From a virus, in IMG/VR virus record IMGVR_UViG_3300042923_000119, positions 1 through 50,912 of that record: a stretch of DNA of 50,912 bases. One strand, given 5' to 3'. Both the position numbers and the translations under genes were made by a program. The notes under the pieces were generated by a model. The model made no database searches. It was given only the letters and a program-made list of their open reading frames with translations, and was not told where the DNA came from. Position 1 is the first letter of the stretch, and each line of letters starts with the position of its first letter. This document shows positions 5,042 through 19,810 of this stretch, piece by piece.

Positions 5042-6682
5042 ATGAAAATAAAGACAATCAAAATTAGTAACTTTTTAGGTATTGACGAATTCAATCTAAA
5101 TCCTAGCAATTTGACAGTATTAGAGGGCGTTAAAGGCTCTGGCAAATCAAGCGTACTAGAAGGTATTGAAACCGCTATAAGCAACACCAAACGCCGTACA
5201 GAGGTAATTAAACATGGCGAGGGCGAGTCTACGTTATTCATTGAAACTGATACAGGGTTAGAAATTGATCGCCGTATTCGTGAAGGTAAGTCGGATTACT
5301 TAAAACTTCGTCAACAGGGTACTGGCATTAAGTCCACTGAATCTGAACTTCGAAAATTGATATCCGGCGATATTTTTAGACCACTTGATTTTATTAATAT
5401 GCAAGCTATCAAACAAACTGAAATTATCTTAGGCATGATTAAAATGCAGTACACAGATAAAGAAATCAAAGGATGGTTCGGACAAGATGTTTTAAGCGGA
5501 ATTAATACGGACAAGCATTTATTACAGGTGCTTAAAGATATTGAAATGGCTAATTACAAACAGCGTGAAGAAACAAACCGCGAAATTAAATTATTAGAAG
5601 GTCAAGTTAAGGGAATTGAATCTGAATTACCGCCAAACTATGACGGTGAAGAGTGGAAAGCCCTAAAAGTACAAGATTACTATAATAAAGTTTCCGAAGC
5701 TCAAAAAACCAACAATTTTATTGATGAAGCTGAAAGATTGACCGCTGGTATTACTGAAAAAGTTGAATCAATTGAAACGGCAGCCGAAAATAATAAATCT
5801 CAAATTAAAATCAAATTCACAGAGCAACGGCAAGACTTGAAAGATATCATCGAATTGTCAAAAGGTAAGATCGTAACAGCTAATAATATTATCAATTCTG
5901 CATCCGATAAATTAAATCTTGAATATGCCGAATTAGATAAGCAAATGGCGCAGGAAATAGCTGAAATTAAAACCAAATACGAAGATTTTAAAAAGCACAA
6001 AAAACAAGTTAACGATAGCGATGTTGATGCACAAAAAGAAATTATTGATGTTCAAAATCAAAAAATCGCCGCAAAAGATCAGGAAATAACTTCATTGGCT
6101 GATCTTGAAAAACAAGAGTTGAAAGCCGAAGATACCAAAACGGAATCCGATATTGAAAAAGAAAAATTAAGAGCTGGCAAAGCTACTGAATATCTTAAAT
6201 CTCATGAAAAAACTGATACTCAGCCATTACAAACCGAAGCTGATAAGGTGGCAGAAATGCAGAGCTATCTTCGTGAATGGGATAGAATGCTTGATATTCG
6301 TGACGGTAAACTGGCTACCAAGAAATCCTATTCCGATAGCTTAACCAACATCATTACGACCGCAAGAAATAAACCTGCTGAACTTTTAAAACAGCATAAA
6401 TTACCGATTGACGGTATTAGTGTAGATGAAAATTCAATGATTCGGATTAATGGCACTTTATTGGATGGCTTATCTGATGGTGAAAAATTAGAAGCAGCTT
6501 TCAAAATTGCGTTACAACGTATTGGGGAACTTCGCATCATCTGTTTAGATGGTATGGAAAAATTAAATGAATCCGAGCAAAATAAGATTGTCAAACTTTG
6601 CGAAGATAATGACTTGCAAGCATTTGTGACAATTACAAAAGATACCGAAAATGGAAATTTTGAAGTTAAGGGGTGCTTATGA
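5042..6682 (+). CDS. SMC/RecN-like AAA ATPase of the phage recombination module
   Basis: A 546-residue protein. Walker A GVKGSGKSS is at about 30-38, a long charged coiled coil spans about 170-400, an ABC-type signature LSDGEK is near 477, and a Walker B-like IICLDG is near 499. This is the SMC/Rad50 layout (head-coil-head). It directly precedes RecT and a PD-(D/E)XK nuclease, so it probably acts with them in DNA end processing or annealing. The SD AGGAGG precedes the ATG and the stop overlaps the next start. Confidence 0.85.
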   Translation: MKIKTIKISNFLGIDEFNLNPSNLTVLEGVKGSGKSSVLEGIETAISNTKRRTEVIKHGEGESTLFIETDTGLEIDRRIREGKSDYLKLRQQGTGIKSTESELRKLISGDIFRPLDFINMQAIKQTEIILGMIKMQYTDKEIKGWFGQDVLSGINTDKHLLQVLKDIEMANYKQREETNREIKLLEGQVKGIESELPPNYDGEEWKALKVQDYYNKVSEAQKTNNFIDEAERLTAGITEKVESIETAAENNKSQIKIKFTEQRQDLKDIIELSKGKIVTANNIINSASDKLNLEYAELDKQMAQEIAEIKTKYEDFKKHKKQVNDSDVDAQKEIIDVQNQKIAAKDQEITSLADLEKQELKAEDTKTESDIEKEKLRAGKATEYLKSHEKTDTQPLQTEADKVAEMQSYLREWDRMLDIRDGKLATKKSYSDSLTNIITTARNKPAELLKQHKLPIDGISVDENSMIRINGTLLDGLSDGEKLEAAFKIALQRIGELRIICLDGMEKLNESEQNKIVKLCEDNDLQAFVTITKDTENGNFEVKGCL

Positions 6683-18156: not shown

Positions 18157-18609
18157 ATGGCAATAAAAAAAGAGATCAAAGCATATGTTGAATGTGAATT
18201 GCGTGATTATTTGCAGACAATCCGTGAACTAGGCGAAGAGCGAGAACAAATTATACATAACTCACCTTCATTTGATGATAGTGGTATTCGCAGTACAGGC
18301 ATTAGCAGGACATGCGAAAATAAAGCCATACAACTTATTACAAGCAAACGATTAATACAAATAGGCAGGACGATAGAGGGTATACAGATGGTATTAGATT
18401 CATTACAAGAGGATAAATACAAACTTGTGCAATTAAAGTATTGGACTAATCCCCAAACTAGGACGGATGAAGGGATAGCTAGAGAGTTAAATATTGGCAA
18501 GACTACATATTATAAGTGGGTCGACGGCATAGTTTTAGCTGTTGCTATCGAATTAGGTCTAGTAAATGGAGTAAGTGCGGAAAAAGTGCGGAGTTTTAGG
18601 GGTGCTTAA
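18157..18609 (+). CDS. ArpU/RinA-like late transcription regulator
   Basis: A 150-residue protein with SFDDSGIRSTGISRTCENKA at about 39-58, a variant of the ArpU/RinA-family signature, and a C-terminal sigma-region-4-like HTH (DEGIARELNIGKTTYYKWVD). These regulators switch on phage packaging and late genes. A TGnTATAAT promoter lies within 10 bases of its stop and drives the structured RNA. SD GGGGTGATTG upstream. Confidence 0.75.
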   Translation: MAIKKEIKAYVECELRDYLQTIRELGEEREQIIHNSPSFDDSGIRSTGISRTCENKAIQLITSKRLIQIGRTIEGIQMVLDSLQEDKYKLVQLKYWTNPQTRTDEGIARELNIGKTTYYKWVDGIVLAVAIELGLVNGVSAEKVRSFRGA

Positions 18610-18620: not shown

Positions 18621-19207
18621 GGGAGTGTGAAGAGTTGTAGAAATACACTTTTAATACATTTGGACATGCCAAGATCAAGTCGAAACTTATCAAAATCGGA
18701 TTGGGCATGACAACGTTTTGCGAGTGTGGGGCAAACGTAATACAATACATTTATATTATAAGACTTAAGGGGTAAGAGACAACCGAAGGTAACGAGCGCG
18801 TGGCTCACGATTACCGCCGAAATGATATGGTTGTCTGCCGTGTACCATGGAGACGGGAGCGCAATACCAATAAGTCGCAATTAAAAATCCGTTGAAAGGG
18901 AAGGGAAACGGCGCAAAGAGAGACTTAGCAATAAGGTGACTCAATTGAGGGGCTGGCTTGCGGGTGGCTCAATTATAGACAGACCGAAATGTCTTACTGT
19001 AGTAATACTACGATGTGTGAAACTAAAGCGAAAGCGAGTCTTAAGGGGCGAAACGTAGCTAGATTGATCGCTAGTGAGGGCGTGGCGGTAGTCACAAATA
19101 CGTGGAAGCGTGGATGGGGCAATCACGGATTTAGAAAAACTTCAATGATAACCAGAGTTTTGTAAGGGGATATGATTTATATCGCTTAATTTTTAAATGG
19201 CTATCAA

Positions 19208-19415
19208 TGGGGTGTGGCGTGAATAGGTAGACGCTAAATAATGGTCAAGGGATGGCTAACGCTTAAGCCTATGTTGGAAGACAAGTCGGGTAAATAGCCG
19301 GAAGATAGGGTTAGCTAATAAATTGCGTGAAAATCATAAAACCATTTATCCTCGTAAAGAGTGCCGACTAACACGCAAATAATCCCATGTGAGGTGCAAA
19401 TCCTCACCGCCCCAA
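19208..19415 (+). ncRNA. tRNA-Leu-like module with an expanded centre
   Basis: TGGGGTG (19208-19214) pairs over 7 bp with CGCCCCA (19408-19414). A Leu-type D arm follows (GCG, TGAATAGGTAGA, CGC at 19217-19234). The 3' side has a T-arm-like hairpin, GTGAGG-TGCAAAT-CCTCAC. Between them lie about 154 bases instead of about 35, with their own helices: GCTAAC/GTTAGC, AGTCGG/CCGACT and TTGCGTG/CACGCAA (19322-19328/19372-19378). No normal anticodon arm or encoded CCA is seen, and the T-stem is one pair too long, so this is tRNA-like rather than a proven tRNA. Confidence 0.55.
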
Positions 19416-19426
19416 TAAAACAAAAT

Positions 19427-19521
19427 GCAAGTGGCTGCACTGTGGGAAGTGCCAGGAACAAATTCCGAATTTAAACTATTCGGTGGAAACAGGAAAAATG
19501 GTTCGATTCCAACCGCTTGCT
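19427..19521 (+). ncRNA. Second tRNA-like module
   Basis: GCAAGTG (19427-19433) pairs over 7 bp with CGCTTGC (19514-19520). A D-arm-like GCAC-TGTGGGAA-GTGC follows, then a GGAA-CAAA-TTCC hairpin, a CCGAAT-TTAAACT-ATTCGG stem with a 7-base loop, and the universal-looking T-loop GGTTCGATTCC. The T-stem pairs only three bases and an extra hairpin is present. If the 7-base loop were an anticodon loop it would read AAA. It is either a decayed tRNA or a structural tRNA mimic ending the large RNA. Confidence 0.5.
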
Positions 19522-19546: not shown

Positions 19547-19810
19547 ATGGAATGGTCAGATGTTGAAAGTAATTTACTATCAAAAGATGAATTAAAGGAT
19601 ATTGACCAAATAGCCAATTTAATATCTACGCTTATACAAAGAAGATTAGACCTTAATTTAACGCAACAAGCATTGGCGGATAAAACAGGTTTAAAACAAT
19701 CAGACATAGCTAGGTTTGAAAGGCTAGGAGCTATACCTCGTATTGATAAATTTACAAGAATAGCAAAAACGTTAGGATATAATGTTAAATTAGAACCTAT
19801 AGAAAATTAG
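19547..19810 (+). CDS. XRE-family HTH protein (HigA-like)
   Basis: An 87-residue protein with an XRE HTH (QRRLDLNLTQQALADKTGLK, SDIARFERLGAIPRIDKFTR) ending in KTLGYNVKLEPIE, the layout of HigA-type antitoxins. No HigB-like toxin is adjacent on either side, so it is an orphan or serves another regulatory role. SD AAGGTGATTAA upstream, directly after the structured RNA. Confidence 0.75.
   Translation: MEWSDVESNLLSKDELKDIDQIANLISTLIQRRLDLNLTQQALADKTGLKQSDIARFERLGAIPRIDKFTRIAKTLGYNVKLEPIEN

Follow-up and report, generated by a model that had tools for sequence, protein, structure and literature searches.

Two tRNA-like modules lie side by side at positions 19208-19521 of a viral sequence (IMG/VR record IMGVR_UViG_3300042923_000119; the whole stretch of 50,912 nucleotides that was analysed is called the window here). 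The first module has the acceptor, D arm and T arm of a tRNA, and a long insert takes the place of its centre. Is such an RNA a structural tRNA mimic, a processing signal for RNase P and RNase Z, or a decayed tRNA built into a larger RNA? In this study, we examined the question by comparing the locus with related viral loci.

Predicted fold of module 1

In the first-pass annotation, module 1 was described as a 7-bp acceptor, a Leu-type D arm and a T-arm-like hairpin, with about 154 bases where an anticodon arm and a variable arm should be. The acceptor strands (19208-19214 and 19408-19414) pair over 7 bp, including one G-U, the Leu-type D-arm lies at 19217-19234, and an insert of about 152 nt replaces both missing arms, as had been claimed. 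The T-arm-like hairpin is also present at 19389-19407, but it has a 6-bp stem and the loop TGCAAAT, not TTCRANY. The module 1 body covers 19208-19414 and is followed by discriminator A73 at 19415. U8 and G9 (19215-19216) lie just 5' of the D-arm, which has one base more than the family consensus. CCA is encoded in neither module, as first noticed.

19208-19415, plus strand: module 1, assigned to the phage tRNA-Leu-like chassis RNAs by its CM match and 219 distinct relatives
19208-19214, plus strand: acceptor 5' strand TGGGGTG, pairing with 19408-19414
19217-19234, plus strand: Leu-type D-arm GCGTGAATAGGTAGACGC; the near-invariant family consensus is TGGCGGAATAGGTAGACGC
19235-19386, plus strand: cargo insert replacing the anticodon and variable arms; 157 clusters among 219 members, with swaps in related phages
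19389-19407, plus strand: T-arm, stem 19389-19394/19402-19407 (6 bp), loop TGCAAAT at 19395-19401; the 6-bp stem and the TG-type loop are coupled
19408-19414, plus strand: acceptor 3' strand CGCCCCA, followed by the discriminator A

ARAGORN, which had been proposed as a check, called neither a tRNA nor a tmRNA in the window. At gathering thresholds, Rfam 15 gave no match to the RNA, including RF00005 for either module. Relaxed Rfam matches to rli48 and AdoCbl-II were below the cutoff and at chance level, and they were rejected. A CM built from 29 other members (R1), with the window and its close relatives left out of the training set, matched 19208-19414 at 51.8 bits (E=3.8e-13). Across the window R1 gave no second match up to E=10, and module 1 was its sole match.

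Related RNAs and covariation of the chassis

A blastn search of phages with the full-length RNA gave only three short matches, which corresponded to D-arms and T-arms in further members of the family; the element was present at those loci, in Enterococcus phage VEsP-1, Weissella phage WC29P3 and Dulem virus 33. The three matches of a GGAATACGTAGACACG search were not family members. At least 119 viral stretches contained a 17-nt D-arm pattern, and at least 120 contained an independent pattern for the T-arm. In most D-arm-seeded loci, a matching T-arm and the other half of a paired acceptor followed at a distance of 80-300 nt, and most T-arm-seeded loci had a Leu-type D-arm and a perfect acceptor upstream. 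A combined test for the element gave 282 matches (265 loci, 225 distinct), and a closely similar test on 4.2 Mb of reversed sequence gave none. The set of distinct members that we assembled numbers 219. Most come from Bacillota phages, SPP1, phi3T, Enterococcus EFDG1 and Listeria B025 among them. The CM also matched SPP1 (75.5 bits), phi3T, Leuconostoc LN34, Listeria B025, Lactobacillus phiJL-1 and others, and the bacterial hosts of the matching contigs were almost all Bacillota. Four phage contigs (L033, L059, L075 and L330) each carried two of the tRNA-like RNAs, which differed in both acceptor and cargo.

The pairing of the chassis was then compared among 63 non-redundant cores. The acceptor was 97% paired, compared with 52% when strands were shuffled, and Watson-Crick types varied at six of its seven positions, that is, its sequence is free but covarying. 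T-stem cells were 99.7% paired in these cores, and the loop was TGCAAAT in 58 of the 63 (267 of the 282 matches), with a 6-bp T-stem in 277 of the 282. The D-arm was near-invariant, and its 11-24 pair covaried between C-G and U-A. The covariation score of 29 aligned short members was 0.711, compared with 0.178 for shuffled alignments and at most 0.153 for slid structures. Stem cells were paired at 98.6%, and double-sided changes numbered 127 against 32 in shuffles. Between module 1 and its relative L093, acceptor pair 2 and a T-stem pair each changed from G-C to A-U, and both changes were compensatory. Loss of the acceptor and T-loop pairings in homologues had been named as the result that would speak against a tRNA-like RNA; the homologues kept these pairings. 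The term structural tRNA mimic thus turned out to suit module 1, in which the acceptor, the D-stem, the T-stem and one elbow contact covary family-wide. The suggestion of a decayed tRNA was rejected for this module, because the stems are kept by compensatory change.

No prior description of the RNA family was found in the open-access literature (preprints and subscription journals were outside this scope), and annotation of it was absent from the records looked at. The SPP1 re-annotation paper nowhere mentions a tRNA (PMC6316719). The RNA family of module 1 is new in that it has no Rfam 15 match, annotation or open-access description. What many viruses of Gram-positive-type bacteria carry here is a predicted tRNA-Leu-like fold that would not read codons and that gene-annotation programs have missed.

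Departures from tRNA and ancestry

A canonical tRNA has a 5-bp T-stem and a TTCRANY loop, whereas module 1 has 6 bp and TGCAAAT. The family also lacks the relaxed stem constraint of tRNA pseudogenes, as its percentage of paired stem cells shows. In 276 of 282 matches, a sixth T-stem pair was coupled with G at position 55 of the T-loop, and canonical TTC loops at these loci mostly had 5-bp stems. A conserved anticodon arm was absent from the family, discriminator A was present in about half to 60% of members, and CCA was encoded in 2 of the 282 matches.

The usual elbow pair of a tRNA is G19-C56. In the family, a T-loop change of C56 to G was accompanied by a D-loop change of G18 to C in L001, L321/L322, L324/L327 and L328, and of G18 to U in L326; in two more G56 members (L325; L329/L330) the D-arm sequences were unparsed. 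The contact is therefore one position off the usual pair. These results indicate that the elbow forms, because a base pair between the D-loop and the T-loop covaries. Host tRNA-Leu-sized loci scored 35-44 bits with the family model. Genome-sample matches of about 80 nt in this range mostly resemble ordinary host tRNA-Leu and were excluded from the members. These scores suggest that the RNA family is probably descended from tRNA-Leu.

Exchange and structure of the cargo

The 219 distinct members carried inserts of 157 clusters. Both 120-nt flanks were homologous in 33 pairs of members, and in these pairs the inserts were unrelated in 15, the same in 16 and intermediate in 2. An insert was taken as unrelated at an identity of 0.54 or less, the 95th percentile of shuffled inserts (shuffled background 0.45); pairs of the L165/L176 type, with cargo identity of 0.57-0.59, were ambiguous against shuffled inserts and were excluded from the swaps. 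Explicit swaps were found in L160/L169, L042/L121, L140/L260, L124/L189 and L134/L221. Their boundaries were sharp, at the D-arm end and at the AUG preceding the T-stem, and in the flank-homologous pairs the chassis was near-identical around unrelated cargos. The converse, the same cargo in different surroundings, was found in L160/L180 and L136/L192. Nearly identical RNA and cargo also occurred in two unrelated Enterococcus phages (L002 1496-1699 and L240 2498-2701), one of 39 kb and the other a Herelleviridae phage of 148 kb, which points to horizontal transfer.

The insert of the window contains the following elements.

19249-19253, plus strand: 5' strand of cargo helix H1, pairing with 19382-19386; kept in L093 through a G-U change
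19254-19260, plus strand: 5' strand of cargo helix H2, pairing with 19310-19316
19284-19289, plus strand: 5' strand AGTCGG of a kissing pseudoknot, in the H2 loop, pairing with CCGACT at 19364-19369 in the H4 loop
19323-19329, plus strand: 5' strand of cargo helix H4, pairing with 19372-19378; one U-A pair is U-G in L093

These helices were named by inspection and checked afterwards, and the evidence for them is weaker than the chassis covariation. The architecture of H2, H4 and a 6-bp loop-loop pseudoknot was common to the window, L093, L002, L240, L018, L053 and L055, and a helix equivalent to H2 but of other sequence stood at a like position in L002/L240, L018, L053 and L055. The pseudoknot occurred in four complementary versions at equivalent positions (AGTCGG/CCGACT, ACACGG/CCGTGT, ACGTGG/CCACGT and ACGTCG/CGACGT). 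This cargo class is also found in Enterococcus phages. The inserts of the window and L093 were 95% identical, whereas their 200-nt flanks were 49% and 70% identical, which suggests that the cargo of the window is under selection.

Across the family, inserts folded modestly better than shuffled sequences (mean z -0.76), and some cargos could be loosely structured passengers. An internal canonical T-arm was found within the insert in 17 of 219 members. In L277 (RNA at 5812-6012, minus strand), a complete tRNA-Lys at 5876-5948 is nested in the cargo, and the L063 insert has a similar RF00005 match inside. Because a tRNA T-arm or an entire tRNA lies within certain cargos, one single kind of cargo is unlikely.

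Module 2 and the genomic surroundings

Module 2 was described earlier as having a perfect 7-bp acceptor, a TTCGATT T-loop, a weak T-stem and an extra hairpin (19465-19483), and all of these were confirmed.

19427-19521, plus strand: module 2, a separate tRNA-like unit; conservation in L093 is 96%, and L353 has it but lacks module 1
19427-19433/19514-19520, plus strand: acceptor GCAAGTG/CGCTTGC, 7 bp
19437-19441/19448-19452, plus strand: D-like hairpin
19465-19470/19478-19483, plus strand: extra hairpin; pairing kept and loop changed in L353
19502-19508, plus strand: T-loop TTCGATT; the T-stem is weak, with 3-4 bp

Module 2 falls outside the chassis family, as it has the canonical TTCGATT and no Leu-type D-arm, and it resembles no family in Rfam. 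The candidate assignment to tRNA-Sec (RF01852) was rejected, its 22.9 bits falling short of the gathering cutoff of 47. In L353, an acceptor U-G pair of module 2 is U-A, and the extra hairpin has compensatory changes with a loop that differs in length and sequence. Given these loop changes, the extra hairpin does not seem to serve as an anticodon arm. The earlier view that the two modules end one structured RNA was only partly right. Module 2 stands without module 1 in L353, a terminator-like hairpin lies between the modules in L093, and in relatives most of the RNA upstream has been rearranged. From this comparison, modules 1 and 2 appear to be separate units in tandem, much like the genes of a tRNA operon. 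A contig from a Massilibacillus MAG (L304) has the same two-module arrangement as the window, which suggests a Negativicutes host for the phage of the window.

Upstream of module 1, a GC-rich structured region (18625-19200) had neither an Rfam match nor a credible phage match; 18739-18852 was about 90% conserved in L093, and the region as a whole was largely rearranged in L093 and L353. A small helix-turn-helix gene (19547-19807) comes right after module 2 and is missing there in L093. Module 1 itself lies about 600 nt past an ArpU-type gene, with the terminase and portal genes downstream.

18157-18609, plus strand: late transcription activator (ArpU-like) gene; phrog_36 (E=1.3e-16) and phrog_248

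In a sample taken across the family, the neighbouring gene upstream was also most often a late activator (phrog_36 in 32 and phrog_248 in 25 of 120, as overlapping sets), and downstream neighbours were frequently HNH or terminase small-subunit genes. The SPP1 member lies among head genes in the gap between genes 9 and 11, the phi3T member in the yonN region and the EFDG1 member within a tRNA array, and some members lie at genome ends. A tRNA or tmRNA was found within 300 nt of 39 of 218 members, always on the same strand, compared with 6% for random placement, and within 15 nt of 11 of the 218. In EFDG1, the tRNA-like RNA starts 2 nt past the end of a tmRNA. As members abut same-strand tRNAs or a tmRNA by 0-15 nt, the suggested role as an RNase P/Z processing signal is plausible from their placement.

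Other small RNAs were observed at these loci. The EFDG1 tmRNA (L240 2148-2498; RF00023, 140.6 bits) is unannotated, and its predicted tag is AKNEELLAVA. Mini tRNA-like elements of 45-46 nt, made of an acceptor and a canonical T-arm without an anticodon arm, lie shortly downstream of the main RNA in SPP1 (L238 2616-2661), L305 and L259. Two further phage RNAs already known, mcrA RNA and skipping-rope RNA, lie just downstream in Listeria B025 (L241 3275-3325) and Dulem virus 33 (L001 1640-1709).

Discussion

Module 1 is a member of a widespread phage RNA family, and the sequences show its constant tRNA-Leu-like chassis and exchangeable cargo. For the working of such an RNA, we give about even chances to a model in which the chassis carries an active cargo. 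RNase P and RNase Z would cut the RNA from the primary transcript as they do a tRNA, and the chassis would then shield the RNA and bar it from decoding. G55 in the T-loop and a 13-bp acceptor/T stack would be ill-suited to normal modification and EF-Tu binding, and the chassis would be kept from decoding for this reason. The cargo at the anticodon site would be the active part that bears specificity; in the window, the cargo is a predicted kissing-loop pseudoknot domain. It would most likely act in trans against a fast-changing partner, for example host defence or a competing phage, and a rapidly changing partner would explain the cassette-like swapping of cargos. Such RNAs are often found where the late region begins, at the junction of activator and terminase, or next to tRNAs. 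More tentatively, we propose that the non-decoding chassis is a cassette holder of Bacillota phages, in which recombination in the conserved D- and T-arms swaps RNA cargos. The phages would thereby have a mobile repertoire of structured trans-acting RNAs, probably effectors of counter-defence or of competition among phages.

The chassis could instead be the active part, as a tRNA-Leu mimic or decoy for a host tRNA-handling factor (LeuRS, RNase P/Z, a modification enzyme, the ribosome or a tRNA-cutting defence nuclease), with the insert as a variable blocker of decoding. The near-invariant D-arm and T-loop beside a free acceptor sequence, the members in tRNA arrays or beside a tmRNA, and the cross-matches of the model to tRNA-Leu-sized loci are consistent with this. 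The conservation of the D-arm and T-loop exceeds what a scaffold needs, and the chassis itself may be recognised. However, discriminator A occurs in too few members for obligatory charging by LeuRS to be likely, and the wholesale replacement of cargos together with their conservation within a lineage (window and L093) points to a functional cargo. We regard the decoy as a less probable explanation, at about one chance in four.

It is rather improbable that the RNA acts in cis, either as RNase P/Z punctuation or, at the head of a late operon, as a leader controlling readthrough or the ends of the mRNA. The frequent site between late activator and terminase genes, the SPP1 copy between genes 9 and 11 and the terminator-like hairpin after module 1 in L093 would fit such a role. 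However, the surroundings are diverse (tRNA arrays, the phi3T yonN region, genome ends), and plain punctuation needs neither exchangeable cargo nor a non-canonical T-loop. A link to packaging or cos, as an RNA or a DNA element, is very unlikely: members are often close to genome ends, HNH and terminase small-subunit genes, but the SPP1 copy is among head genes, the EFDG1 copy is in a tRNA array, and one phage can have two copies (L033, L059, L075). The clear tRNA-Leu ancestry and the weak T-stem of module 2 might point to remnants of phage tRNA arrays, in the form of decayed genes or pseudo-tRNA genes. This reading is hardly credible against compensatory changes that keep all stems across hundreds of phages and a constant non-canonical T-loop with its extra T-stem pair.

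The model phages SPP1 and phi3T and many other Bacillota phages thus carry a tRNA-like RNA gene that is unannotated in the records looked at. If the cargos of the chassis are effectors of counter-defence or competition, protein-centred annotation has overlooked a phage RNA arsenal. SPP1 in B. subtilis offers a direct route to testing the role of the cargo.

Comparison with known systems

The family resembles tmRNA (RF00023) in having the acceptor/T-arm fold of a tRNA and a long pseudoknot-bearing insert in place of the anticodon arm. It differs in being tRNA-Leu-like and not tRNA-Ala-like, with a full D-stem, the TGCAAAT loop, a 6-bp T-stem and a hypervariable, exchangeable insert. At the gathering cutoff, RF00023 matched neither module 1 nor module 2, whereas it found the EFDG1 tmRNA. 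The G3-U70 alanine identity pair of tmRNA is absent, the third acceptor pair of module 1 being G-C, and inspection of the inserts by eye revealed no consistent tag reading frame. With bacterial tRNA-Leu (class II), the family shares the 7-bp acceptor, U8-G9, a near-identical D-arm and the AU before the T-stem. It differs from tRNA-Leu in the 6-bp T-stem and in the change of U55 to G, and it has neither a conserved anticodon arm nor a long variable arm; ARAGORN rejects the family RNA.

GOLLD and ROOL are likewise structured phage or prophage RNAs found close to tRNAs, and GOLLD has a variable linker able to hold tRNAs (PMC12286853). The present RNAs are about 80-300 nt long, compared with more than 800 nt for many GOLLD RNAs, and are built on a tRNA fold; the GOLLD and ROOL models of Rfam gave no match to the RNA. 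The tRNA-like structures of plant RNA viruses are also a case of viral tRNA mimicry. They lie at the 3' end of RNA genomes, whereas the family members are encoded inside the genomes of DNA phages, have both strands of the acceptor and carry a replacement for the tRNA centre. In its constant fold and exchangeable centre, the family is like the engineered tRNA scaffolds used for RNA expression, but it is natural.
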